A stretch of 38,934 bases of DNA from Desulfarculaceae bacterium (GTDB lineage: Bacteria; Desulfobacterota; Desulfarculia; Desulfarculales; Desulfarculaceae): positions 1-38,934 of the forward strand of contig JANQFN010000129.1 of NCBI GenBank assembly GCA_028277825.1. Reading direction: 5' to 3'. Under the pieces are notes generated by a model. The model ran no database searches, was not told the DNA's origin, and worked only from the letters and a program-made list of their open reading frames with translations. Positions 20,101-36,892 of this stretch are shown piece by piece. The position numbers were made by a program, and so were the translations under genes. The stretch's first letter is position 1. Each line of letters starts with the position of its first letter.

Positions 20101-20790
20101 TTGAAGGTCATCTCACCCTGGTTCGAGATTCTGTTTCTGCCTCCGGCCGAGGAGGTGCTGGCCCTGGTGGAGCGGGCCGGGCGCACCTGTTACAAATCCG
20201 AGCATCTGATCAGCGATGATTCGGCGGCCAAGTTTGTGGGGCGCATCGTGGCCTCGGGCCACCACAGCGTCATCGAGCATTCCCTGCTCACGGTGCGCTT
20301 CATCTGCGACCGGGGCGTGACCCACGAACTGGTGCGTCACCGCCTGGCCGCCTACAGCCAGGAATCCACCCGTTACGCCAACTACTCTCAGGAGCGCTTC
20401 GGCAACCAGATCACCGTGATCCGCCCCATGTTCTGGGCCGAGGATTCGCCGGAGTATCAGGCCTGGCTGCAATCCATGCAAGACAGCGAGGCGGCCTACT
20501 TGCGGCTCTTGGAAATGGGGGCCAAGGCCCAGGAGGCCCGGGCGGTGTTGCCCAACAGCCTCAAGACCGAGATCGTGATGAGCGCCAATTTGCGCGAATG
20601 GCGCCACGTGATAGACCTGCGTTGCTCCAAGCCGGCCCATCCCCAGATCCGCCAGATCATGCTACCGCTGCTCAATGAACTCAACCAACGCATCCCGGTG
20701 TTTTTCGAGGACCTGGCCGAAAAGTACGCCGATGACATCGCTGAATTCGCCTCGGGCGCGGCGGCGTTGAGTCCGCCTCCGGAGGAATAA
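20101..20790 (+). CDS. thyX: FAD-dependent thymidylate synthase
   Basis: ThyX motif RHRLAAYSQESTRYANYS, ISDDSAAKFVGRIVASGHHSVIEH; TTG start. Confidence 0.93.
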   Translation: MKVISPWFEILFLPPAEEVLALVERAGRTCYKSEHLISDDSAAKFVGRIVASGHHSVIEHSLLTVRFICDRGVTHELVRHRLAAYSQESTRYANYSQERFGNQITVIRPMFWAEDSPEYQAWLQSMQDSEAAYLRLLEMGAKAQEARAVLPNSLKTEIVMSANLREWRHVIDLRCSKPAHPQIRQIMLPLLNELNQRIPVFFEDLAEKYADDIAEFASGAAALSPPPEE

Positions 20791-21234: not shown

Positions 21235-22575
21235 CTAGCCCAGATAGGTCTCGATGAAGCTGGTGTCCACCTCGCCCGAGGCGAACTGGGGGTGCTCCAG
21301 TATCTTCAGATCCACCGGGATGGTGGTCTTGACCCCCTCGATCTGGAAGTCCTTGAGCCCCTGCACCAGGCGGACGATAGCCCCGGAACGCTCCTCATCC
21401 CAGGCGATGACCTTGGCCAGCATGGGGTCGTAGTAAGGCGGCACCACGCAGCCGTCGGCGATGGCGTGATCCACCCGCAGGTGCTCGCCGGTCTCGGGGA
21501 AGACGACTCTTTCGATGGTGCCCGGCGAGGGGAAGAAGGTCTCCGGGTCCTCGGCGTACACCCGGGCCTCGATGGCGTGGCCCTTTAGTTCGACGTCATC
21601 CTGGCTCATGGCCAGACTCTCACCGGAGGCGATCAAGAGCTGCTGCCTGACGATGTCCACCCCGGAGAGGAACTCGCTCACCGGGTGCTCCACCTGCAGG
21701 CGGGCGTTGACCTCCATGAAGTAGTAGTCGCCGTCCGTCGAACGCAGCCCCTCCAGGGTGCCGGCGCCCACGTAGCCCATCTTCTTGACGATGGCCTGGG
21801 TGTTGGCAAAGAGCTTGACGCGGTCTTCTGGGGTGACCACCGGCGACAGGGCCTCCTCGATGATCTTCTGGTGGCGGCGCTGCACCGAGCACTCGCGCTC
21901 GCCCAGGCAGACCACGTTGCCCTCGCCGTCGGCCAGAAACTGCACCTCGATGTGGCGGGGGTTTTGCACCACGGTCTCGATGTAGCACTCCGGCGAGCCG
22001 AAGGCCATCTCGCCGATGCTCTGGGCGCGCTGGAGCACCTCGGCGGCCATCTCGGCGGACTCCACCATCTCGATGCCCTTGCCGCCGCCGCCCTTGTCCA
22101 GCTTGAGGAAGATGGGCCAGCCGTGCTCGTTGCCGAAGGCGGCCACCTCCTCGGGCGTATTCACCGGCTCCAGGGTGCCCGGGGTCACCTCGGCCCCCAC
22201 CTCCACCGCCAGGCGCCGGGTGTAGCACTTGGAGCTGATGGCGGCCAAGACCTCCGGCGGCGGGCCCACCCAGATCAGGCCGGCGTCCGCCACCTGCTTG
22301 GCAAAGGCGCCCCGCTCGGAGAGGAAGCCGTAGCCGGGGTGGATGGCCTGGGCGCCGCTTTCGATGGCGGCGGCTACGATGGCCTCCATGTTCAAGTAGC
22401 TCTCCACCGGATTGGCCGGGCCGATCAATACCGCCTCGTCGGCCTCGGCGGTGAAGGGAGCGCCCCGGTCGGCCTCGGAGAACACGGCCACGGTGGCGAT
22501 GCCCAGCTCCCTGCAGGAGCGGATGATGCGGGGCACGATCTCGCCCCGGTTGGCTATGAGCAGTTTTTGGATCAT
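21235..22575 (-). CDS. accC: Biotin carboxylase subunit of a biotin-dependent carboxylase
   Basis: LLIANRGEIVPRIIRSC, KLDKGGGGKGIEMV, ARLQVEHPVSEFLSGVDIV. Confidence 0.93.
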   Translation of the reverse strand: MIQKLLIANRGEIVPRIIRSCRELGIATVAVFSEADRGAPFTAEADEAVLIGPANPVESYLNMEAIVAAAIESGAQAIHPGYGFLSERGAFAKQVADAGLIWVGPPPEVLAAISSKCYTRRLAVEVGAEVTPGTLEPVNTPEEVAAFGNEHGWPIFLKLDKGGGGKGIEMVESAEMAAEVLQRAQSIGEMAFGSPECYIETVVQNPRHIEVQFLADGEGNVVCLGERECSVQRRHQKIIEEALSPVVTPEDRVKLFANTQAIVKKMGYVGAGTLEGLRSTDGDYYFMEVNARLQVEHPVSEFLSGVDIVRQQLLIASGESLAMSQDDVELKGHAIEARVYAEDPETFFPSPGTIERVVFPETGEHLRVDHAIADGCVVPPYYDPMLAKVIAWDEERSGAIVRLVQGLKDFQIEGVKTTIPVDLKILEHPQFASGEVDTSFIETYLG

Positions 22576-22584
22576 GATCCGGAT

Positions 22585-22809
22585 CTACTCCTCCACCTCC
22601 AGCATCACCATGGGATCGCCCACCTGCATCTCGTCCCACTCCTTGGAGATGACCTTGGTGACCACACCGTCGTATTCGGAGTTCACCTGTATTTCGGTCT
22701 TCATGCAGTTGATCACCGCCACTTCCTGGCCCTTGCTCACCTGATCGCCCTCGGCCACCACCACGCGCGCGCACAGACCGGGCATTATGGCGTTAACGCT
22801 CTTTTCCAT
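22585..22809 (-). CDS. Biotin/lipoyl attachment domain carrier protein (BCCP)
   Basis: NAIMPGLCARVVVAEGDQVSKGQEVAVINCMKTEIQVNSEYDGVV; biotinyl-Lys context C-M-K-T. Confidence 0.9.
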   Translation of the reverse strand: MEKSVNAIMPGLCARVVVAEGDQVSKGQEVAVINCMKTEIQVNSEYDGVVTKVISKEWDEMQVGDPMVMLEVEE

Positions 22810-22848
22810 GATTTATCCTCTTTCTGTCCGATGAGTCCGCCGGCCTTT

Positions 22849-23832
22849 TCAAGCCAGCGACGCTTCGCTGAGTAGTTCCTTCTGTTCCTTGCGGGCAGCT
22901 ATGGCCTCGTCCTGGTTGCTTAGCTCAAAGCGCATGAAGTCGCGCCCCGGCGCCCCCTGCCCCACCTTCCACAGGTCGGCGTTGATCACGTTCAGGGCGC
23001 ACATGTAGCCGCCCAGGGTGGGGCCGTCGGCGATGAGCAGGATGGGAGTGTTGCCGCAGATGTTCAAAGCTCCGCGGATGGCGTAGGCGTGATCGATGAT
23101 GTTGGAGGGGTGGCTGCCGCCCACCCCGCCGTCGGCCCGGGCGAAGAAGCTGTCGGGCAGCTCCTCCAAACGGTAGGCCGAGCGGTTGGAGGTGTGCTGG
23201 ATCTTGGACACCCGCTCAAACAGCAGGTCCATGCCCTCCTCGGTGACGTAATCCGGGCAGGTGTTGGGCCCGGGGATGGCCCGGAGCACCAGCTCGTTGG
23301 TCAGCTGGGGCACCGCGCCTTCTTTGAGTTTGCGCCCGGCCAGGGCGGCCAAATCCGCCGAGGGCTCCCCGAACAGCACTTCGTCGCCCTCCACCAGGGC
23401 CCGGCCCTGAAAGCCCCCGTAAGAGCCGAAGATGCAGGTGGACTTGCTGCCCAAATAGGCGGGCACGTCCACGCCGCCGGCCACCGCCAGATAGCAGCGG
23501 AAGCCGGTGGGCCCGATGTGCAAAAACTTGATCACGACGCCGGCGCCAACCTTGATGGACTCCCACAGGGGAACCGGCTGTCCGTTGATGGTGGGCTGCA
23601 TGTCGCTGCCACCCATGGCGATAACGTGGTCGCCGTCAAACTCCGCCTCCAAAAAGCCGCCGGTGATCTCCAGGCCGGCCTCGCCGGAGGGGTTGCCCAC
23701 CAAGACGTTGGCCAGGCCCAGCCCCACGTTGTCAAAGGCGCCCGAGGCGCTCATGCCCTTGCCCAGATAGCCCAGACGTCCCGGCCAGTCCTCCACCAGG
23801 GTCTCGATGCCGCCGTTGATTATCTTCAGCAT
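22849..23832 (-). CDS. AHS2-domain (KipA/PxpC-like) carboxyltransferase half, urea-carboxylase type
   Basis: GGIETLVEDWPGRLGYLGKGMSASGAFDN, GSDMQPTINGQPVPLW, DHAYAIRGALNICGNTPILLIADGPTLGGYM, ADLWKVGQ. Confidence 0.88.
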   Translation of the reverse strand: MLKIINGGIETLVEDWPGRLGYLGKGMSASGAFDNVGLGLANVLVGNPSGEAGLEITGGFLEAEFDGDHVIAMGGSDMQPTINGQPVPLWESIKVGAGVVIKFLHIGPTGFRCYLAVAGGVDVPAYLGSKSTCIFGSYGGFQGRALVEGDEVLFGEPSADLAALAGRKLKEGAVPQLTNELVLRAIPGPNTCPDYVTEEGMDLLFERVSKIQHTSNRSAYRLEELPDSFFARADGGVGGSHPSNIIDHAYAIRGALNICGNTPILLIADGPTLGGYMCALNVINADLWKVGQGAPGRDFMRFELSNQDEAIAARKEQKELLSEASLA

Positions 23833-23852
23833 AAGCCTTGCTCCTTATCGCC

Positions 23853-24839
23853 CTACAGCCGCGGGGCCTTCTTGGTGCCCTCGGCCTGCTTGGCCTTGAG
23901 CTCTTGCATCCCGGTTTGCACTTCCTCCGACTCGTACCACTGGATGTACTCCTTGGCTTTGATCTCGCCCTGCTCGATCTGGTATTCGTAGTCGGTCTTG
24001 TCGTGCACGTGGTCGTAGATCTCCACCACCTCCTTCTCGCTGACCTCGTGGAAGCGCACCCGGTCGGCGTTGCGGTAGAGGAAGGGGCCGTCTTTGAACA
24101 GTGGGTGGGTGCAGGAGAACTGGAACACCGGGATGGTGCGCCCGAACAACTGGTAGCCGCCGCCGGTGGGGGTGGTGTAGGTGAACACGCAGGGTCCGCC
24201 GATGCCCACCGCTCCCTCCGGGGTCCAGGTGCGCGGCGGGTTGTACTTGGGCACCACGATGGCGCAGCGCGGGTCGGTGGGCCAGAGGAAGGCCCCGCCC
24301 GGCCAGAAGCCGCCGCCGCTGTTGAACCAGTCGGTGCCCAGGATCATATCCTTGCACTCACGCACCGACACCCCGTTGCACATGGCCATGTACTCCAGGT
24401 TGTAGCCGTCGATCACGTTGGGCGCCTCGGGACGCACCTCGGCCACATAGCGGGCCACCGCCTTTTTGGTCTCGCTGTCCTCAAAGGCGATGGGCAGATG
24501 GATCAGGCGGGAGGCCAGCACCACGTCGTCGATGGTGGGCATGGAATCCTCGGCCTCCTTGACCGCCGCGATCAACTCGGCTTCGCTGATCACCAGGGGA
24601 TCGTAGTGCAGCATGTTGGTGCGGATGCCGGGGACGGTCTCGATCAGCCCGGGAATCTCCTTGGCCAGGATGATGTCGTTGACCGCCAGCATGCGGAAGG
24701 AGTCCTGCAACAGGGCCCTTTGCTCCCTGCCGTACTCCACCTGCATGAAGCCGTCGCCGGCCTGCCGAAACAGAATCTCCAGGCGGGATTCAGTCTCGGG
24801 CATGGTGTCCAATATGACCTGGTATTTGCCTTGGCTCAT
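23853..24839 (-). CDS. AHS1-domain (KipI/PxpB-like) carboxyltransferase half, urea-carboxylase type
   Basis: VVPKYNPPRTWTPEGAVGIGGPCVFTYTTPTGGGYQLFGRTIPVFQ, RNADRVRFHEVSEKEV; 328 aa from ATG 24839 (MSQGKYQV). Confidence 0.88.
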   Translation of the reverse strand: MSQGKYQVILDTMPETESRLEILFRQAGDGFMQVEYGREQRALLQDSFRMLAVNDIILAKEIPGLIETVPGIRTNMLHYDPLVISEAELIAAVKEAEDSMPTIDDVVLASRLIHLPIAFEDSETKKAVARYVAEVRPEAPNVIDGYNLEYMAMCNGVSVRECKDMILGTDWFNSGGGFWPGGAFLWPTDPRCAIVVPKYNPPRTWTPEGAVGIGGPCVFTYTTPTGGGYQLFGRTIPVFQFSCTHPLFKDGPFLYRNADRVRFHEVSEKEVVEIYDHVHDKTDYEYQIEQGEIKAKEYIQWYESEEVQTGMQELKAKQAEGTKKAPRL

Positions 24840-25131
24840 GGTCAGTGCCCCCTTTCGGGTCGCCGGCGGGACGGCCGCTGGTGCCGGCCGCGCTCCGCTC
24901 CTATCGTTTCTCGGGTGTCTCCCCCAGCCGCCCGGCCGTGGCCGGGTTCGCTGGCGGGTATCATGCAATGAACCCCGCCGTCTTAGCGCTCATCTGCCCA
25001 GCCGGTATTCCCCGGCAGAACCGAACGCATCGGCCCTTGTGAGCCAGCGGGCAAGGGCTCGTTATTATTAAAAAACTGTCTTTTTAGGGCGCTCCGGCGC
25101 CGGCCCACGGTCGGGCCAGGCGGCCCTGGCG

Positions 25132-25893
25132 CTACAGAGGCGGCGAGGCTATTGCCACTCCGGCCTCTTCCAACGCGCGGCGCGCGGCCTTCAAAATTTC
25201 CAACGCCCCCGGGGTGTCGGAATGGAGGCAAACCGAGCTGCCCGAGATGTCGATCTCAGCGCCTTCGGTGGAGGTCACTTTGCCCTCCTGGACCATTTTG
25301 AGGACCTTGGCCGACACGTCCTCTGGTTGCAGGGCCTCGTGGTGACGGGTGATCACCAGATTGCCCTGGTTATCATAATCCAGGTCGCCGTACAACTCAT
25401 ACACCACCTTCAGGCCCATCTCTTCGGCCAGCGGGCCGGCGACGCCCTTCTTCATGATGTAGAGGTATAATTCGGGGTCAATGTCCAAGGTGGCCTGGCA
25501 CACGGCCCGGGCCACTTCTTCGGAGCGGCAGGCCATGCCGTACAGCGACCCGTGCGGCTTTACATGATGCAGGCGGAGGCCGGCGGCCTGGCAAAAGGCC
25601 TGCAGCGCGCCCACCTGGTAAACCGTGTTGTCGTAAATCTCTTCGGGGGTGAGCTTCATCTCCCGCCGCCCGAAACCCTGCAGGTCGGGCAGGCCGGGGT
25701 GGGCGCCCACGGACACGCCGCGTTCGGCGGCCAGGGCCACGGTCTGACGCATCACCGTGGGGTCGCTGGCGTGGAACCCGCAGGCCACGTTGGCGCTGGA
25801 GACGAACTCCATGAACTGGGCGTCATTGCCCATTTTGTACATCCCGAAGCTCTCGCCCATGTCGGCGTTGATGTCCAACTGCATTGCCGCCAC
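25132..25893 (-). CDS. pxpA: LamB/YcsF family protein, 5-oxoprolinase subunit A-like
   Basis: LDINADMGESFGMYKMGND, SSANVACGFHASDPTVM, VSVGAHPGLPDLQGFGRREM, HVKPHGSLY, ISGSSVCLHSDTPGAL. Confidence 0.92.
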   Translation of the reverse strand: MAAMQLDINADMGESFGMYKMGNDAQFMEFVSSANVACGFHASDPTVMRQTVALAAERGVSVGAHPGLPDLQGFGRREMKLTPEEIYDNTVYQVGALQAFCQAAGLRLHHVKPHGSLYGMACRSEEVARAVCQATLDIDPELYLYIMKKGVAGPLAEEMGLKVVYELYGDLDYDNQGNLVITRHHEALQPEDVSAKVLKMVQEGKVTSTEGAEIDISGSSVCLHSDTPGALEILKAARRALEEAGVAIASPPL

Positions 25894-26184: not shown

Positions 26185-27651
26185 TTAGCCCTTGAACTGC
26201 TTCAAGGCCTCGAAGTCGAAGTTGTCCTTGGCGATGGCGCTGCCCACCAGGGTGATGATGCCAGCCGAAGCGAAGGCCGCTATCATGGCCCAGCCCCACA
26301 GGCCCATGCCCAGGAACATGTAGGTGCCCACGCCGAAGCCCACCAGCCCGCCAATGAAGATCGGCCAGGCGCTGATCCACTTCCAGTACTGGGAAGAGAC
26401 GAAGCCGAACACGAAGGGCGCGGTGTACATGGGCATAAACAACAGTACCATCAGAATCGACAGCGGCGTCAGGGAAACCGCTATGATCGCCAGGGTGACG
26501 ATAACCACCAGCACCCGGGCCACCTTCTTGACCTGATCGTCGGTGGCGGCCTTGTTGATGTAGGCACGGTAGATGTCGTTGCCGATGATGTTGGAGATGG
26601 CCACCACCGCGGCACCGACGGTGCCCACCGTGGCCGCCATGACCAGCCAGATGAACAGGACGCCGGTCCAGGTGGGCAGGTAGAGGCCCACCAAGGAGGC
26701 GTAGGCCTGGCTGCCGGGCACCTCGGGCATCTTGCCCGACTTCATAAGGATCAGGGCGGCAAAACCCAGAGTGGCCGACAGGAAGGGCATGAAGAACCAC
26801 CAGTTGCCCGCGTGCCTAAAGGCGCGGCCCACGTCCTTGGGCTCCCGGATGGCGAAAGCGGTCTGCCAGTAGTCCTGCTGCATGGGCAGCGAGAACAGGG
26901 CCCAGGCCAAGACCGGGATCAGGTAGTTGATCAGGGCGCTGGGACGGAAGATCTCGAACATCTCCGGAGCCAGTTTGCCGCCTTGCAACAGTTGCCCGGC
27001 GGTTTCCATGATGGGCGTGGGGCCGCCCACGGCCACCCAGGTAGCCACGCCGACGATGGCGCAGATGGGCATGGCGATCAAAGTGAAGATCCAGGTGGAG
27101 ATCAGGCTGCCCCACAGCCCGGCCACCACCGTGAAGATCAGCACCGCCACACCCAGGAAGGCCACACCTACCCAGTAGGGCACCGCCCCTCCGGTGAGGC
27201 CCACCATGACGTGGCCCGCGGCCAGGCCCTGGATCCAGGCGCCGGAGAAGGTGGTGGCGATGGCGAAGATGATCACCAGGATGTGCAGCGCCGGATTGAA
27301 GCGGTGACGGAAATACTCGGTGTAGGAGATGGCGTAGGGAAAGACCTCTCTGAGCTTGGAGGCCCAGATGCCGAACACCCACAGACCCACGGCGTACATG
27401 GGATAGATCCATACGCCGGAGATTCCGTTGTTCACCGCGCCTTCGGCCGAACCCATGACCGAAGACCCCCAAATGTACATCGAGGTCACCGAGGCTGTAA
27501 CCAGCGCCCAGTGAGCCCTGCGGCCGGCCACCAGGTAGTCTTCGGAAGTTTTGATCAACTTCCATTTCCTGGCGATAACAGCCACTATCACCGGTACGAT
27601 GATAGCCACGAATGCGGCTATAATCGCAACAACGGGACTTAAACCTTTCAT
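26185..27651 (-). CDS. Sodium:solute symporter family (SSS) transporter
   Basis: SEDYLVAGRRAHWALVTASVTSMYIWGSSVMGSAEGA; many hydrophobic helices; 488 aa. Confidence 0.9.
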   Translation of the reverse strand: MKGLSPVVAIIAAFVAIIVPVIVAVIARKWKLIKTSEDYLVAGRRAHWALVTASVTSMYIWGSSVMGSAEGAVNNGISGVWIYPMYAVGLWVFGIWASKLREVFPYAISYTEYFRHRFNPALHILVIIFAIATTFSGAWIQGLAAGHVMVGLTGGAVPYWVGVAFLGVAVLIFTVVAGLWGSLISTWIFTLIAMPICAIVGVATWVAVGGPTPIMETAGQLLQGGKLAPEMFEIFRPSALINYLIPVLAWALFSLPMQQDYWQTAFAIREPKDVGRAFRHAGNWWFFMPFLSATLGFAALILMKSGKMPEVPGSQAYASLVGLYLPTWTGVLFIWLVMAATVGTVGAAVVAISNIIGNDIYRAYINKAATDDQVKKVARVLVVIVTLAIIAVSLTPLSILMVLLFMPMYTAPFVFGFVSSQYWKWISAWPIFIGGLVGFGVGTYMFLGMGLWGWAMIAAFASAGIITLVGSAIAKDNFDFEALKQFKG

Positions 27652-27889: not shown

Positions 27890-29842
27890 TTAGCTCCAGT
27901 GGGAGATGGTTCGTTTTTCCAGCATCTCCCTAAATTGCGCAGTGGACTTGGGCAACACGGTCTTTTGGCCCCAATCCATGACCACCCCGTAGCGGCGCAC
28001 CACGTCCATCTCGTCGATCTCGCCGTTGGCCAGCATCTGCTGCACCTCCTTGGGGTCCGAGCGCATCCAGGCCACCCGGTTCTCGCGGATGTAGGCGCGC
28101 TCTTTGTCGGTGGCCTCGGTGTCGATCTCATAATCCAGCATCACCGGGTCGTTTTCGATCACCACCACCCCGTAGTCCTTCTTGGCCCGCTCGATCGAAA
28201 CGTAACCGTCGATCACGTCTTCCAGCACCATCTCCGGGTCCCGCTCCAGGGGATCGCCCAGGCCGCCGCCGCCGGCCGAGGGCCGGGTGAAAGTGTCGCC
28301 GGCCTCCACCGGCACCCCGGAGAAGATGGCGCCCAAAAAGGCCTCGTCCTCTTTGCCCTTGTTTTTCCACAGTCCCTGGGGGATGGAGGGCAGGCCGCCC
28401 CAGATGCCGAAGGCGATGGAGCGGGCCCGGTCGCAGCAGTAGGACATCACCGAACCGTCGCAGGACATCACCGTCCCGCCCTTGGTGAGGCCGCAGCCGC
28501 CGCGGAACTTGCCCGGTCCGGCCGAGTCCATCAGGATACTGTGCTCGGCGGTTAAGACCGGGGTGAGGCGCTCCTGGCCCTCGCAGGGCTGAATGGACAG
28601 CCCCAGGCCGAACACTGCAGCGGTGCCGTTGGAGCCGTCCTTGGACGAGCGGCCGCCGTGGCCGCCGGCCATCCAGTCGTACCACATGAAAAAGGAGTCA
28701 AAGCCCGGCCGGCGGTCCCAGCCGCCGATGAGTAAATACTCCAGGTTGAAGGCGCAGCCCAGGGCGCGCTGGGGCATCAACTCCGACCAGAGCTCGATCA
28801 CCGCCGCCTGGGCCTTTTCATAGACCCCGGAGCAGAAGCCGGTCACCGCCACCGGCCAGGGCGCGTTGGCCACGCAGCCCTCGGGCACGGTCACGTCGAA
28901 GACCCGGAAGAAGCCGGCGTTCAGCGGTATGTCGGGGAAGAAGGCCTTGGAGCCGGCCACCAGGGAGGACAGGGTGGCGGGGAAGGCCGAATTTAAAAAA
29001 CAGCCCACGATGGGGTTGGAGCCGGTGAGGTCATAGTGCACTTGGTCGCCCTTGATGGTCATCTTGACCTTGATGGGGATCAGGCCCTCTTCCTGGTCCG
29101 GGTCCTGGTCGATGAAGTCCACCGTCTCCCACTCGCCGTCGGGGATCTCGGCGATGCGGCTGCGCGCGATGCGCTCCACATAGTCCTGGCACTCGCGCGC
29201 CGCGGCCAGCACCGTGTCCACCCCGTATTTCTCGATGAGGCGCAAGAACTCGCGCTCGCCCACCTTGCAGGCCTCGGCCTGGGCCCTGAGATCGCCCAAG
29301 CGGTCCTCGGTGCCGCGCATGTTGGCCACCAGGCAGTCGGCCACGTCGCCCAAATAGCGACCTTGGTCCCAGATGCGGATGGGGGTGATGCGGGTGCCTT
29401 CGCCGTAATGCTCGCGGGCGGTGATGTCAAAGGAGCCGGGCACCTTGCCGCCCACGTCGGCCCAGTGGCCGTTGGACAGGGTGAAGGCCACGATCTCGCC
29501 CTCATGAAACACCGGCTTTACCACCCGCACGTCGCAGAAGTGGGTGCCGCCCTCATAGGGATCGTTGAAGATGAAGATGTCGTCCTCGTGGATGTCGTCG
29601 CCAAAGGCCCTGAGGATCGCCTTGCAGGTCAGGTGCAGGGTGCCCACGTGCACCGCGATGTCCTGGCTGCCCTGCATGATGGTGTCACCGTTGGCGTCAC
29701 ACAGGGCGGAGGAGAAATCGCGGCAGTAGATCACGAAGGAATAACAGGTCCTCAGCACCTGCTCGGACATCTGGTCCACCAGGTTGCCGAAGGCGTTTTT
29801 CAAAACCTCGAAGGTTACGGGATCAAGCTCTTTGTTATTCAT
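27890..29842 (-). CDS. hyuB: Hydantoinase B/oxoprolinase family protein
   Basis: DPVTFEVLKNAFGNLVDQM, HVGTLHLTCKAIL, DIFIFNDPYEGGTHFCDV, RPSAGGGGLGDPLERDPE. Confidence 0.93.
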   Translation of the reverse strand: MNNKELDPVTFEVLKNAFGNLVDQMSEQVLRTCYSFVIYCRDFSSALCDANGDTIMQGSQDIAVHVGTLHLTCKAILRAFGDDIHEDDIFIFNDPYEGGTHFCDVRVVKPVFHEGEIVAFTLSNGHWADVGGKVPGSFDITAREHYGEGTRITPIRIWDQGRYLGDVADCLVANMRGTEDRLGDLRAQAEACKVGEREFLRLIEKYGVDTVLAAARECQDYVERIARSRIAEIPDGEWETVDFIDQDPDQEEGLIPIKVKMTIKGDQVHYDLTGSNPIVGCFLNSAFPATLSSLVAGSKAFFPDIPLNAGFFRVFDVTVPEGCVANAPWPVAVTGFCSGVYEKAQAAVIELWSELMPQRALGCAFNLEYLLIGGWDRRPGFDSFFMWYDWMAGGHGGRSSKDGSNGTAAVFGLGLSIQPCEGQERLTPVLTAEHSILMDSAGPGKFRGGCGLTKGGTVMSCDGSVMSYCCDRARSIAFGIWGGLPSIPQGLWKNKGKEDEAFLGAIFSGVPVEAGDTFTRPSAGGGGLGDPLERDPEMVLEDVIDGYVSIERAKKDYGVVVIENDPVMLDYEIDTEATDKERAYIRENRVAWMRSDPKEVQQMLANGEIDEMDVVRRYGVVMDWGQKTVLPKSTAQFREMLEKRTISHWS

Positions 29843-29856
29843 TTGCTTATGCCCCC

Positions 29857-31887
29857 TTACCCGGAGATGTCCATGATGATGTTCAGATACTCATCCACTC
29901 TGGCCCCCACCCCCACCGGGATCACCGTGGTGGTGTCCAACTGCTCCACGATGGCCGGGCCGGCCAGTTCGGTGCCAGCCGCCAGGTCGCGGCGGCGGTA
30001 CACCGGGGTCTCCACGAAGTCGCCTTCGCTCTCGGAAAACACCGAGCGCACCTCCTTGGGCTCGGGCGCTCCTTCCCCGGCGGTGCCGGTTTGAATGGAA
30101 GGCATGGGCACCTTGCCGATGGCGGTCACCCTGAGGCCGTAAATCTCCACCACCTGGTCCGGGTTGGACCAGGAGAACTGGCGCTCGTGCTCGGCGTGGA
30201 ACACGGCCAGGGCGTCGTCCAGGGTGGTGATGGGCTTGGGCACCTTGACCGAAAGCTGGCGCCACTGGCCGATGTAGCGGATGTCCATCAGGCGGATCAG
30301 CTCCACGTCGTCGCCGGTCATGCCTTCCTCGGCCAGAAGCTCGGTGGCCTCGGTTTCCAGGTCCTGGAAGATGGACTCGATTTCGGCGATATCGGTCCCG
30401 GCCGAGGTGGCCAAATAGGTCCTTTGCAGATCGTGGCGCACGTCCACCAACAAACAGCCCAGGGCGGCGTGCACCCCGGGGTAGCGGGGAATGATCACGG
30501 TGGGGATCTCCAGTTCGCGGGCCAGATAGGCCGCGTGCAGGGGCCCGGCCCCGCCGAAGCCCACCAGGGCGAAGTCCCGCGGGTCGTAACCGCGCTGCAC
30601 CGAGATCAGTCGGAGGGCGTCGCACATGTTGGCCTCGGCCACCTTGATGATGGAATGGGCCGCCTCCACCAGGCTCATGCCGTACTGGTCGGCGATCTTC
30701 TGCACCGCCGCCTCGGCCGCTTCCTTGCTGATCTGCATGCCGCCTTCCAACAGGTTGGTGTTCAGGCGGCCCAGGACCAGGTTGGCGTCGGTGTTGGTGG
30801 GCTCGGTACCCCCGGTCTGGTAGCAGGCCGGGCCGGGATCTGCCCCGGCACTCTGGGGTCCGTTGCGTAAGGACCCGCCCGGGTCCACCCAGGCGATGGA
30901 GCCGCCGCCGGCGCCGATGGTGATCACCTCGATGGAGGGGTACATGATGGGGTAGCCGAACTCCACCTGCCACTCGTTGGCCATGCGCAGCTCACCGCCG
31001 TAGGTCAGGGAGATGTCGGTGCTGGTGCCGCCCATGTCCAGGCCCATGGCGTTTTCAAAGCCGCAGAGCTGGGCGGTTTGGTTCATGGCGATGGCCCCGG
31101 CGGCGATGCCCGAGGAGGCGATGCGGCTGGCGTAGCTGGTCACGGTCTCGGCCTTCATCACCCCGCCGCCGGAATGCAGCACCAGGATGTCGCCGGCATA
31201 GCCCAGGTCCTTGAGCTTGCCCACCAGGTCCTGCAGGTAGTCGCTGACCACCGGGCCCAGCACCGCGTTGACCACGCAGGTGGAGAAGCGCTCGTGCTCG
31301 AAGATGTCGGGCAGAAGCTCGCTGGAGGTGCAGACATAAGCCCCGGGCATCACCTCCGAGATGATCTCCTTCATGCGCTCTTCATGGGCCCCGTTCATGT
31401 AGGAGTTCATGAAGCAGATGGCCACTGCGGCCATGCCGCGCTGTTTGAACACCTCGGCCACCTGCCGGGCCTCGGCCTCGTCCAGGGGAGTGACCGCCTC
31501 GCCGGCATAGTCCATGCGCTCGGTCACCTCCAGGCGGTGGCGGCGGGGCACATGGGGCGGGGCCACGTCCTTGTAGTGGTCCCAGAGGTCGGGCTTGGTG
31601 GAGCGCCGGATCTCGATGACGTCCCTAAAGCCCTTGGTGTTGACCATGCCGGTGGGGGGCAGGTTGCGGGTGATCAGGGCGTTGGTGCCCACGGTGGTCC
31701 CGTGGCTGAACAACTGCACCTGGTCCATGGGCACCTCGGCCTTGGCCATGCCCGCCACGATGGCCTCGGAGGGGTTGGACGGCGTGGAAGGCACCTTTTG
31801 CACAATGACCTCGCCGGAATCCTCTTCGAATATGAATACGTCGGTGAACGTGCCTCCGGTATCTACCGCAACTCTGTATTTGGCCAC
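29857..31887 (-). CDS. hyuA: Hydantoinase A/oxoprolinase family protein
   Basis: YRVAVDTGGTFTDVF, FSHGTTVGTNALITR, LDMGGTSTDISL, FALVGFGGAGPLHAAYLARELEI. Confidence 0.94.
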   Translation of the reverse strand: MAKYRVAVDTGGTFTDVFIFEEDSGEVIVQKVPSTPSNPSEAIVAGMAKAEVPMDQVQLFSHGTTVGTNALITRNLPPTGMVNTKGFRDVIEIRRSTKPDLWDHYKDVAPPHVPRRHRLEVTERMDYAGEAVTPLDEAEARQVAEVFKQRGMAAVAICFMNSYMNGAHEERMKEIISEVMPGAYVCTSSELLPDIFEHERFSTCVVNAVLGPVVSDYLQDLVGKLKDLGYAGDILVLHSGGGVMKAETVTSYASRIASSGIAAGAIAMNQTAQLCGFENAMGLDMGGTSTDISLTYGGELRMANEWQVEFGYPIMYPSIEVITIGAGGGSIAWVDPGGSLRNGPQSAGADPGPACYQTGGTEPTNTDANLVLGRLNTNLLEGGMQISKEAAEAAVQKIADQYGMSLVEAAHSIIKVAEANMCDALRLISVQRGYDPRDFALVGFGGAGPLHAAYLARELEIPTVIIPRYPGVHAALGCLLVDVRHDLQRTYLATSAGTDIAEIESIFQDLETEATELLAEEGMTGDDVELIRLMDIRYIGQWRQLSVKVPKPITTLDDALAVFHAEHERQFSWSNPDQVVEIYGLRVTAIGKVPMPSIQTGTAGEGAPEPKEVRSVFSESEGDFVETPVYRRRDLAAGTELAGPAIVEQLDTTTVIPVGVGARVDEYLNIIMDISG

Positions 31888-31932: not shown

Positions 31933-33231
31933 TCAGGCCGCGGCCAGACACTCCTCCAAAATGGCAAAGCCCTTATCCAGCTCCTCGTCGCTGATCACCA
32001 GGGGCATCAGGGTCCGGATAACGTTGCCGAAGTTGCCGCAGGACAAGAGCAACAGCCCCTTGTCCAGGGCACTGGCCACGATGGCCTTGGCCTGCTCGGT
32101 GGCCGGCTCCTTGGTTTCGCGGTCGGTCACCAGCTCCATAGCCTTCATGGGCCCCAGGCCGCGCACCTCGCCGATGATCTCGTACTTCTCAGCCAGGGCC
32201 GTGTAGCGCTCATCCAGCTTGGCGGCCAGTTGGTTGGCCATCACCAACAGCCCGTCCTCTAGCTCGTCCAGTACGGCCAGGGCCGCCCGGCAGGACATGG
32301 GGTTGCCGCCGTAGGTGCCGCCCAGGCCGCCCACGTGCACCGCGTCCAACAGCTCGGCGCGGCCGATCACCGCCCCCAGGGGCAGGCCCGCGGCCAGGGA
32401 CTTGGCGCTGGTGATGATGTCCGGCTCCAGGCCCCAGTGTTCGCAGGCGAACATCTTGCCGGTGCGCCCCATGCCCGACTGCACCTCGTCCATGATGAAG
32501 TTGATGCCGTACTTTTCGCAGATGGCCTTTACCTTGGGGAAGTACTCCGGCGGGGGCACGATGAAGCCGCCTTCGCCCTGCACCGGCTCGGCGATCAAAC
32601 CCGCCACCGACTCGCCGGCCACGTTATCGATGAAAAACTCCTCCAAATAATCGGCGCAGTGCACCGAGCAGGAGGGGTACTCCAGGCCAAAGGGACAGCG
32701 GTAACAGTAGGCGAAGTGGGCCCGGTAGACCTCGGGGCAGAAGGGGCCGAAGCCGAACTTGTAGGGCTTGACCTTGCTGGTCAGAGTCATGGCCATATAG
32801 GTGCGGCCGTGGAAGGCGTTGTCAAAGGTGATGATCCCCTGGCGGCCGCTGGCGTAGCGCGCCACCTTGATTGCGTTTTCCACCGCCTCGGCCCCGGAGT
32901 TGACCAAATAGCTCTTTTTGGCAAAGTCGCCGGGGGCCAATTCGTTGAGCCGGCCGGCCAACTCCACGTAGGGCTCGTACTGCACCACATGGAAGCAGGT
33001 GTGGGTGAATTTGTCGGCCTGGTCCTTGAGCGCGGCCACGATTTTTTCAGAACTGTGGCCCACGTTCATAACCCCGATGCCGCCGGTGAAATCCAGATAA
33101 GTCCTGCCTTCCACGTCGGTGATGGTGGCGCCGGTGGCGCTGGCCGCGAAGATGGGGTGCACGTTGAAGGGACCCGGCGGTATGTGCTGTTCTCTTAAGG
33201 CAACCAGTTCTTTATTAGTCTTGCTGCTCAT
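31933..33231 (-). CDS. Class III (omega/4-aminobutyrate-type) aminotransferase
   Basis: YLVNSGAEAVENAIKVAR, FHGRTYMAMTLTSK, FIMDEVQSGMGRTGKMFACEH, TSAKSLAAGLPLGAVIGR (PLP Lys). Confidence 0.93.
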   Translation of the reverse strand: MSSKTNKELVALREQHIPPGPFNVHPIFAASATGATITDVEGRTYLDFTGGIGVMNVGHSSEKIVAALKDQADKFTHTCFHVVQYEPYVELAGRLNELAPGDFAKKSYLVNSGAEAVENAIKVARYASGRQGIITFDNAFHGRTYMAMTLTSKVKPYKFGFGPFCPEVYRAHFAYCYRCPFGLEYPSCSVHCADYLEEFFIDNVAGESVAGLIAEPVQGEGGFIVPPPEYFPKVKAICEKYGINFIMDEVQSGMGRTGKMFACEHWGLEPDIITSAKSLAAGLPLGAVIGRAELLDAVHVGGLGGTYGGNPMSCRAALAVLDELEDGLLVMANQLAAKLDERYTALAEKYEIIGEVRGLGPMKAMELVTDRETKEPATEQAKAIVASALDKGLLLLSCGNFGNVIRTLMPLVISDEELDKGFAILEECLAAA

Positions 33232-33269: not shown

Positions 33270-34535
33270 CTAGGGGAAGACGCCCCTGAGCTGCTTGGCC
33301 TCGGCCACCCGGCCGATGGCCAGCATGTAGGCGGCGGTGCGCATATTCACCTTTTCTTTCTGGTGGATGGCGAACACCTCGCCAAAGGCCTTGGCCATGA
33401 TGTGCTTGAGTTGCTGGTTTACGTCGCTCTCGGTCCAAAACAGCTTCTGTAGATTTTGTACCCATTCGAAATAGGAAACCGTGACCCCGCCGGCGTTGGC
33501 CAGGATGTCGGGGACCACGAAGATGCCCTTGTCGTAGAAGATCTGATCGGCCTGGGGGCTGGTGGGTCCGTTGGCGCCCTCCACCACCACCTGGGCCTTG
33601 ATGTTGTCGGCGTTGGCAAGGTTGATCTGGCCCTCCAGGGCGGCGGGCACCAGCACCTCGCAGTCCAGCTCCAACAGCTCGGCGTTGGTGAGCGCCTCGC
33701 CCTGGGGGTATTCGGGCAGGCTGCCCCCGCCGGCGACATGGGCCTGCACCGCCGCCGGGTCCAGGCCGGCCGGGTTGAACACCCCGCCGTCCACGTCGGA
33801 CACCGCCACCACCTTGACCCCCATTTCGTGCAAAAGCTCGGCGGCGTGATAGCCCACGTTGCCAAAACCCTGCACCACCGCCCGGGCCGAGTTCAAATCC
33901 AGGCCCATTTCCCGGGCGGCCTCTTCCAACACGTAGACGCAGCCGCGGGAGGTGGCCTTGAGCCGGCCGGCCGAACCGCCGATGGCCGGGGGCTTGCCGG
34001 TGACCACGCTGTTGCAGGTGTAGCCCTTGAACACGCTGTAGGTGTCCACGATCCAGGCCATCACCTGGGGGTTGGTGTTCACATCCGGGGCGGGGATGTC
34101 CTTTTCCGGCCCGATGATGGGCGATATCTCCCAGATGTAGCGCCGGGTGAGGCGCTCCAGTTCAGCCGAAGACATGGTGGCCGGGTCGCAGGTGACCCCA
34201 CCCTTGCCGCCGCCGAAGGGGATGTCCACCACCGCGCACTTCCAGGTCATCCAGCCGGCCAGGGCGCGCACCTCGTCCAGGTCCACCTGAGGGTGGTAGC
34301 GGATGCCGCCCTTGGCCGGGCCGCGCAAGGTGTTGTGCTGCACCCGGTAGCCCGAGAGCAACACCGTGTGGCCATCGTCAAAGCGTAGGGGAAAACGGAC
34401 CGAGAACTCGCGGCGGGGGGTCTTGATCTTGTCCAGAATCCAGTCCTCGACCTCCAAATGCTCCACCGCGATGTCGAACTGCAGGTTGTGCATCTCAAGC
34501 GGCTTGGTCTCGTCGTATTGACTGAAGTCGATCAT
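33270..34535 (-). CDS. gdhA: Glu/Leu/Phe/Val-type dehydrogenase (glutamate dehydrogenase)
   Basis: [74 protein letters not shown]. Confidence 0.93.
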
Positions 34536-35255: not shown

Positions 35256-36647
35256 TCAATGTTGAATCACGGGCCGCTTGGATCTTTTGCGGGCCACGGT
35301 GGCCTGGCTCACCCCCAGGGCCTCGGCCGCCTTGGCCTGGGTGCCGAACTTTTTGAGCGCCGAGGCGATCAAGGCCTGCTCGAATTCCCTGACCGCGCTT
35401 TTGAGGTCCCTGCCCTGTCCCAGTTGAGAGGCGGCATCCAGGGTACCGCCGCGCTGCATCATCTTGCCCGGCAGGTCCACCAGTTCGATGGCGTGGTCCC
35501 GGCTCATCACCACCAGGCGCTCCACCAAGTTCTCCAGTTCGCGCACATTGCCCGGCCAGTCGTAGTCCATCATCGCCTCCAGCACCGGTGCGCTTATTTC
35601 TTTGCTGTTGCCGTGTTTTCCGTTGAAGCGCTTTAGGAAATGATTGACCAACAGCGGGATGTCCTCGCTACGCTCCTTCAAAGGGGGCATGTGCAGCGGC
35701 ACCACGTTGATGCGGTAATAGAGGTCCTCGCGGAAACGGCCCGCGGTCACCTCGGCCTCCAAATCCACGTTGGTGGCGGTGATCAAGCGGGCGTCCACCT
35801 CGATGGCCTCACCGCCCCCCACCCGGATCATGTCGCCCTTTTCCAAAAACCGGAGCAGTTTGTGCTGCACCTCAAGAGGCACCAGGGCGATCTCGTCCAG
35901 GAACAGGGTGCCCTCCTGGGCCATCTCGAACAGACCGATCTTGCCGCTGGTTTTGGCGCCGGTGAAGGCCCCGCGCTCATAGCCGAACAGTTCGGATTCG
36001 AAAAGCGGCGGCGGAATGGCCCCGCAGTCAATACGGGTGAAGGTCTTGTCCCGGCGGCCGGAGAGGTTGTGCACCGCGTGGGCCAGCAGCCCCTTGCCGG
36101 TGCCTGACTGGCCGGTGATCAGCACCGTGGTCTTGAAAGGCGCCACGTGGGTGGCCGCCTCCATGACGTTGCGGATCAAGGGGGAGTTGCCCACTACCTC
36201 ATCAGCAACCAGCTTCTCCAGGTCCCGCTTTAAAAGCTCGCTCTCAAAACGCTGGGCCCGGGCCTCGTTGTCCAAAAGCTGGTGGCGCAGATTGTCCAGC
36301 TCGGTGATGTCCCGGTCATTGGTGACCACCAGCACCACCTTGCCCTCGGCGTCGAAGATGGGGCTGCCGGTGACCAACAGCTTCTTGCCGGTGGTCAGCA
36401 CCCGCTGCATCATGGAGACCTGCCGCTGCTGCCGGATCACCTCCAGGCTCACCGCCCGGTCTATGATGCCCCGGTCCTCCAGGGCGTTGACCTTGCGTCC
36501 GATGTAGTCGTCGGCGTTTATGCCGTTCATGCGCTCGGCGGCGGCGTTGCAACGCAACACCCGGCCCTCGCCGTCGCATATCCAGATGCCGTCGAAGGAA
36601 GAGTTGAAGATGGCCTCGAACTGCTCCTTGATCAACTCTTCGTACAT
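35256..36647 (-). CDS. PAS-domain sigma54-interacting transcriptional regulator, Fis-type HTH
   Basis: GQSGTGKGLLAHAVHNLS (Walker A), ELFGYERGAFTGAKTSGKIG (GAFTGA), GTLFLDEIALVPLEVQHKLLRFLE, C-terminal AKAAEALGVSQATVARKRSK; start re-placed to ATG 36647. Confidence 0.93.
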   Translation of the reverse strand: MYEELIKEQFEAIFNSSFDGIWICDGEGRVLRCNAAAERMNGINADDYIGRKVNALEDRGIIDRAVSLEVIRQQRQVSMMQRVLTTGKKLLVTGSPIFDAEGKVVLVVTNDRDITELDNLRHQLLDNEARAQRFESELLKRDLEKLVADEVVGNSPLIRNVMEAATHVAPFKTTVLITGQSGTGKGLLAHAVHNLSGRRDKTFTRIDCGAIPPPLFESELFGYERGAFTGAKTSGKIGLFEMAQEGTLFLDEIALVPLEVQHKLLRFLEKGDMIRVGGGEAIEVDARLITATNVDLEAEVTAGRFREDLYYRINVVPLHMPPLKERSEDIPLLVNHFLKRFNGKHGNSKEISAPVLEAMMDYDWPGNVRELENLVERLVVMSRDHAIELVDLPGKMMQRGGTLDAASQLGQGRDLKSAVREFEQALIASALKKFGTQAKAAEALGVSQATVARKRSKRPVIQH

Positions 36648-36794
36648 GGCGAAGTCCTCCCCGGCGTGCCGGCTCCGGCAATGATGGCCGCCCGCGGTAA
36701 AATTGGTTTCACACCAACGGGCCGTTCCGGCGCCTGTGGCCGTTGGCCAAATCCTGCCACAGTCTCCGGGCCCGAAACAACCGTTGATGCAGTT

Positions 36795-36892
36795 TTGAAC
36801 CCCCATACAGGGGTTCATTCCCCGCGGCTTGCCGCGTTATAAAATTGAAATCTTCCTCTTGATACCCCGCTGCTTGCGGCGGGGTTGTTCAT
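36795..36892 (-). repeat. 98-bp three-hairpin dispersed element, copy 3 (inverted)
   Basis: Reverse complement ATGAACAACCCCGCCGCAAGCAGCGGGGTATCAAGAGGAAGATTTCAATTTTATAACGCGGCAAGCCGCGGGGAATGAACCCCTGTATGGGGGTTCAA. Confidence 0.9.

Follow-up and report, generated by a model that had tools for sequence, protein, structure and literature searches.

The stretch of DNA analyzed here (the window) comprises 38,934 nucleotides of contig JANQFN010000129.1 from a Desulfarculaceae bacterium (assembly GCA_028277825.1), and it carries a five-gene module that combines a PxpA-type hydrolase with two carboxyltransferase halves (AHS1 and AHS2), a biotin carboxyl carrier protein (BCCP) and a biotin carboxylase (BC). 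The minus-strand order PxpA, AHS1, AHS2, BCCP, BC was confirmed, and an earlier note made from the sequence alone had described the five genes, their order and strand, and the 328-residue length of AHS1 correctly; the peptides it quoted are present.

25132-25893, minus strand: PxpA / LamB-YcsF hydrolase, 253 amino acids; GTG start, alternatively ATG at 25884
23853-24839, minus strand: AHS1 (CT_C_D), long form, 328 amino acids; ATG start at 24839; carboxyltransferase half with the KYNP lysine K198
22849-23832, minus strand: AHS2 (CT_A_B), 327 amino acids; the other carboxyltransferase half
22588-22809, minus strand: BCCP, 73 amino acids; PF00364 (1.4e-13); biotin-type motif NCMKTE, containing the CMKT biotinylation motif
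21235-22575, minus strand: BC, 446 amino acids; PF00289/PF02786/PF02785

The module proteins exceed the Pfam gathering scores for LamB_YcsF, CT_C_D, CT_A_B, Biotin_lipoyl and three biotin-carboxylase domains. PxpA is matched by PF03746 (1.8e-94), by NF003814 at 319.8 bits against a cut-off of 226, and by PDB entry 1v6t (7e-76), and BC has the Gly-rich loop and the QRRHQK and EVNARLQVEH motifs. The remaining four open reading frames (ORFs) tile the NCBIfam urea-carboxylase model TIGR02712, with BC covering positions 2-442 (439 bits), AHS2 449-766 (274 bits), AHS1 785-1097 (224.5 bits) and BCCP 1134-1201 (38 bits), which bears out the earlier proposal that all four urea-carboxylase modules exist here as separate genes; no single chain exceeds the equivalog cut-off of 1303.85.

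The affinity of the two carboxyltransferase halves lies with urea carboxylase. AHS1 scores only 40.2 bits with the PxpB model (TIGR00370, cut-off 145.55) and AHS2 163.7 bits with the PxpC model (NF045499, cut-off 500), in both cases under the cut-off and well below their TIGR02712 scores. The best PDB matches of both proteins are the Kluyveromyces lactis urea carboxylase and urea amidolyase, aligned over nearly the full length (AHS2 against urea carboxylase 3va7, 1.8e-52). Residues 11-310 of AHS1 align with 3va7/5i8i, and K198, the lysine of PKYNPPRTW, falls at chain position 1605 of 5i8i; according to PMC5770610, Lys1605 probably acts as an essential general base when urea carboxylase carries out its carboxyltransferase reaction. 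In the AHS1 tree, long AHS1 proteins group with urea carboxylases, with support of 99/97, and lie apart from PxpB. The same tree places the urea carboxylases inside the long family, a placement for which the tree tool flagged long branches, and a single clade of long AHS1 apart from urea carboxylase was not rejected (AU p 0.256). In the AHS2 tree, the long family (support 97/85) is the sister of urea carboxylase, and the pair has support of 100/98. Scores, structural matches and trees thus agree in supporting the assignment of AHS1 and AHS2 to the urea-carboxylase-type carboxyltransferase domains rather than to PxpB/PxpC, as the earlier note had read them, and neither protein clustered with canonical PxpB/PxpC.

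The module nevertheless differs from the known urea/guanidine carboxylases, given that it consists of four separate genes instead of one chain of ~1200 amino acids, has an acc-type BC, and is accompanied by PxpA instead of allophanate hydrolase; urea genes were not seen at the locus. The absence of allophanate hydrolase had been asserted earlier for the locus and extends to the genome, where no protein passes the curated cut-off (best match, 206.8 against 511), although absences in this genome are not absolute, given an assembly completeness of 92% and its division into 640 contigs. The module also departs from the PxpABC 5-oxoprolinase (YbgL/YbgJ/YbgK in Escherichia coli and YcsF/KipI/KipA in Bacillus subtilis), with which it shares a PxpA above the cut-off and AHS1/AHS2 of the same wider superfamily: its AHS1 is long, its two carboxyltransferase halves fall under the PxpB and PxpC cut-offs, and it has a dedicated BC and BCCP as well as an adjoining GABA-type aminotransferase.

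We found AHS1 orthologues with 83-86% identity in five of the seven other genomes of the genus. In the four genus genomes whose neighborhood was read, AHS1 is accompanied by AHS2, BC and PxpA, and the BCCP of the remaining one lies at locus L038; given these orthologues and their neighbors, the module is not an accident of assembly. Orthologues surrounded by the remaining module genes also occur in other families of the phylum, and a Thermomicrobium megaplasmid carries the module next to a molybdenum hydroxylase and the biotin transporter BioY. One scan of genome contigs, seeded with KYNP-type peptides, returned 80 loci whose record titles name Desulfobacterota, Bacillota, Actinomycetota, Thermomicrobiota, Chloroflexota, Rokubacteria and Nitrososphaerota, as well as metagenome-assembled genomes (MAGs) titled Deltaproteobacteria or Proteobacteria, so that the module is present in several phyla, some archaea included. 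For 45 AHS1 rows, the flanks extended 6 kb or more in both directions; BCCP and AHS2 were nearby in all 45, PxpA in 44 (the sole row lacking it is a fused urea carboxylase) and BC within 8 kb in 37, with BC slightly beyond 8 kb in three Thermomicrobium-type loci. The presence of BC was scored by BLAST with two BC proteins; an iterated BC profile was dropped since it collected AHS2 and AHS1 too. The five genes were likewise found together at long-AHS1 loci retrieved by tblastn or whole-genome search, without the pattern, provided that the contig extended far enough. The Met-Lys pair is kept in 90 of 90 BCCP-like sequences (CMKT in 22 of them), BioY lies within 10 kb at 13 of 79 loci, and strong AtzF matches occur only in urea-carboxylase loci. 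The association of BC and BCCP with AHS1/AHS2 that had been claimed for this locus therefore holds across phyla, with PxpA alongside, and the same breadth removes the novelty claimed for the gene combination. The five-gene module is widespread and is not described in the papers searched; our literature searches found no paper on a biotin-dependent PxpA system.

Six further genes lie upstream of the module on the same strand and had been omitted from the earlier note.

26185-27651, minus strand: SSS family sodium:solute symporter; PF00474 (1.1e-17); TIGR00813 107.5 bits, under the cut-off of 184
27890-29842, minus strand: HyuB/CapB-like subunit; PF02538 (3e-148); caprolactamase beta model 330.6, under the cut-off of 1000
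29857-31887, minus strand: HyuA/CapA-like subunit; PF01968 (1.1e-88); caprolactamase alpha model 549.9, under the cut-off of 1000
31933-33231, minus strand: class III aminotransferase of the 4-aminobutyrate:2-oxoglutarate type; TIGR00700 536.7 bits, above the cut-off of 506.65
33270-34535, minus strand: glutamate dehydrogenase (GDH) family protein; PF00208/PF02812; NF040817 538.8 bits, under the cut-off of 750
35256-36818, minus strand: sigma-54-dependent PAS regulator; nearest model PrdR (NF041552), 422.6 against a cut-off of 795

Several of these genes recur with the module. Homologues of the sigma-54 PAS regulator lie nearby at 16 of 79 loci, and the recurrent neighbors include GABA-type aminotransferases, GDH, aldehyde:ferredoxin oxidoreductase or aldehyde dehydrogenase, and transporters, which fits a putative substrate that is opened to an omega-amino acid and then converted to a semialdehyde and an acid. 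CapAB-like HyuA/HyuB pairs, here at 27890-31887 of the window, were also seen next to the module in Dethiobacter, Paradesulfitobacterium and a Solirubrobacterales MAG (L054, L064, L068 and L111).

Drawing on the observed gene content, homology, phylogeny, motif conservation and recurrence, we propose that the module probably encodes a urea-carboxylase-type amide N-carboxylase that depends on biotin, is split into separate subunits and acts together with a PxpA hydrolase. Biotin dependence is likely; we infer that the subunits form a complex in this organism, that a small lactam or ureide is N-carboxylated, and that PxpA performs the second step, the latter from its linkage and its known role in 5-oxoproline hydrolysis. 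Using ATP and bicarbonate, BC would attach a carboxyl group to the biotin of the 73-residue BCCP, and carboxybiotin would travel to the AHS1/AHS2 carboxyltransferase site, where Lys198, the counterpart of yeast Lys1605, would assist CO2 transfer onto the amide nitrogen of the substrate. PxpA would then hydrolyze the weakened amide and open the ring, and the resulting carbamate would shed its CO2, which would thus serve as a recycled activating group. The predicted product is an omega-amino acid of the GABA, 5-aminovalerate or beta-alanine class, which the adjacent GABA-type aminotransferase could deaminate while GDH recycles glutamate. A lactam is our favored substrate because of the recurrent omega-amino-acid-type neighbors, the caprolactamase-like HyuAB at a minority of loci, and the bicarbonate requirement of caprolactamase, for which a carboxylated lactim is one proposed intermediate (PMC8453981); a ureide would be the main rival and 5-oxoproline the least likely candidate. 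The CapAB caprolactamase of Pseudomonas jessenii likewise needs ATP and bicarbonate for lactam opening, and CapAB-like HyuAB is encoded in this operon, but CapAB belongs to an unrelated family (hydantoinase A/B) and uses no biotin, and the HyuAB proteins here score well under the caprolactamase cut-offs.

Whether the module represents a widespread, uncharacterized biotin-dependent opener of lactams or ureides, in which CO2 sits temporarily on the ring nitrogen and is lost after the PxpA cut, with urea carboxylases as close relatives or perhaps offshoots, is a broader reading for which we see the case as evenly balanced. If the inferred chemistry holds, biotin carboxylation would here break a stable ring amide instead of building a C-C bond. 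In many genomes, genes that currently bear the names 5-oxoprolinase and acetyl-CoA carboxylase (ACC) would then encode parts of a single enzyme, with consequences for the kinship of urea carboxylase with PxpB/PxpC and for the question whether some PxpB/PxpC use biotin subunits.

We considered three other explanations. A ureide route, in which an N-carbamoyl-amino acid arises from the opening of a hydantoin- or dihydropyrimidine-like ring by HyuAB, the urea-carboxylase-like enzyme carboxylates the ureido nitrogen, and PxpA cleaves in place of allophanate hydrolase, would account for a carboxyltransferase nearest that of urea carboxylase, for HyuA/HyuB as neighbors of the module in Bacillota, Actinomycetota and one Methylobacterium plasmid, and for NCS1-type permeases and PucR-type regulators in Actinomycetota loci. 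However, most loci lack HyuAB (HyuA at 6 of 79), the known use of PxpA is on a lactam, and the GABA-type aminotransferase fits lactams equally well, so we regard this route as unlikely. Less probable again is a second 5-oxoprolinase in which biotin replaces the ATP-only PxpBC route, which is the role that the earlier note had suggested. PxpA homology and the established 5-oxoprolinase activity of PxpABC (PMC13274462) speak for it, but three PxpA-AHS1-AHS2 loci without BC are present elsewhere in the genome, AHS1 and AHS2 lie far from PxpB/PxpC in the trees, and the operon contains CapAB-like genes and a GABA-type aminotransferase, which would not be required for the glutamate formed from 5-oxoproline. 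Taken together, the additional loci and the other operon genes make 5-oxoproline a less likely substrate than a lactam or ureide that yields an omega-amino acid.

We give slightly less credence still to the possibility that BC and BCCP belong to ACC and merely adjoin an unrelated PxpABC-like lactamase. In three other module-bearing genus genomes (G045, G049 and G051), no BC was detected besides that of the module, while each has an ACCA-like protein of ~640 amino acids; an ACCA-like protein is also encoded elsewhere in the present genome, and BC may thus be shared with it. A further genus genome (G050) has the ACCA-like protein yet no detected BC, which weakens the argument. Moreover, no AccA/AccD carboxyltransferase is present among the operon genes, BC and BCCP score under the ACC models (accC TIGR00514, 508.3 against 626.5; TIGR00531, 21.8 against 115.2), the five genes are kept together across phyla, and AccA3 occurs together with AHS1/AHS2 in PDB entry 9yx5. 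Two BC genes were found in the present assembly, the second in a locus with its own BCCP-like protein, and a biotin-ligase domain is encoded in all six genus genomes searched, this one included.

Several observations weigh against the N-carboxylase that we favor. BC matches the acc-type model PRK08591 better (535 bits) than it matches the urea-carboxylase model, so the four parts need not have a common history, and the PxpA proteins that accompany long AHS1 did not group together in a quickly made PxpA tree, the backbone of which was poorly resolved. Four long-flanked Firmicutes loci have BCCP but no BC in reach, and in the present genome a fourth AHS1/AHS2 locus (L007, contig C136, 6336-8099) has the KYNP-position lysine with no BC or BCCP nearby. 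Conservation of this lysine among the scan hits is partly by construction given the KYNP-type seeding. Finally, short Arg-type AHS1 and AHS2, fused to each other, adjoin BC-BCCP genes in Klebsiella, Neorhizobium, Paracoccus and Ketogulonicigenium; hence the lysine is not required for association with BC-BCCP.

The KYNP-position residue was read from alignment columns, as a regular expression for the region proved too narrow, and the lysine is also present in a second AHS1 clade that was retrieved by tblastn on plasmids without the KYNP pattern, where BC and BCCP adjoin in Rhizobium, Shinella, Sulfitobacter, Methylobacterium and Halostagnicola. As a sole separator of biotin-linked from other AHS1 proteins, the lysine failed. 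On plasmids of Rhizobiaceae, Rhodobacterales and Klebsiella (L141, L142, L143 and L149), PxpA was seen together with a fused Arg-type AHS1-AHS2 and a BC-BCCP fusion.

PDB entry 9yx5, matched from window positions 22852-24845, lists mycobacterial AccA3 (BC-BCCP) with short AHS1 and AHS2 chains (V and W), so that a BC-BCCP subunit and the AHS1/AHS2 pair share a single experimental entry; we read them as one functional enzyme. In contrast to the module, its AHS1 is short and Arg-type, and its BC-BCCP is fused and also serves acyl-CoA carboxylases. A PxpA-like chain was not found in the entry, nor was a paper describing it found in our literature searches. Judging from this entry, PxpB/PxpC-type proteins may be able to cooperate with a biotin subunit. 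In Corynebacterium glutamicum, cg1141 and cg1142 have been named pxpA and pxpT (PMC13274462), and a published table shows that their mRNA levels change with biotin supply (PMC3398298). Given the Arg-type loci, 9yx5, the C136 locus and the C. glutamicum biotin response, biotin's role may extend beyond the long AHS1 family, and the lysine is an imperfect marker of biotin linkage. Of the earlier interpretation, the urea-carboxylase-type carboxyltransferase, the four modules and their linkage thus stand, whereas the 5-oxoprolinase role, the novelty of the combination and a sharp divide in which long AHS1 depends on biotin and PxpB/PxpC on ATP alone are not clearly supported.

Within the window, the sigma-54 promoter pattern gave 14 matches with at most two mismatches against 16.4 expected by chance, nothing above chance, and 16 terminator-like sites were found against 13.1 expected. 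In Bacillota, a small membrane-like protein with no NCBIfam match adjoins the module at L051 (14410-14931) and at six other loci. On the plus strand of the window, at 20101-20790, an ORF resembles, by eye only, a ThyX-type thymidylate synthase.

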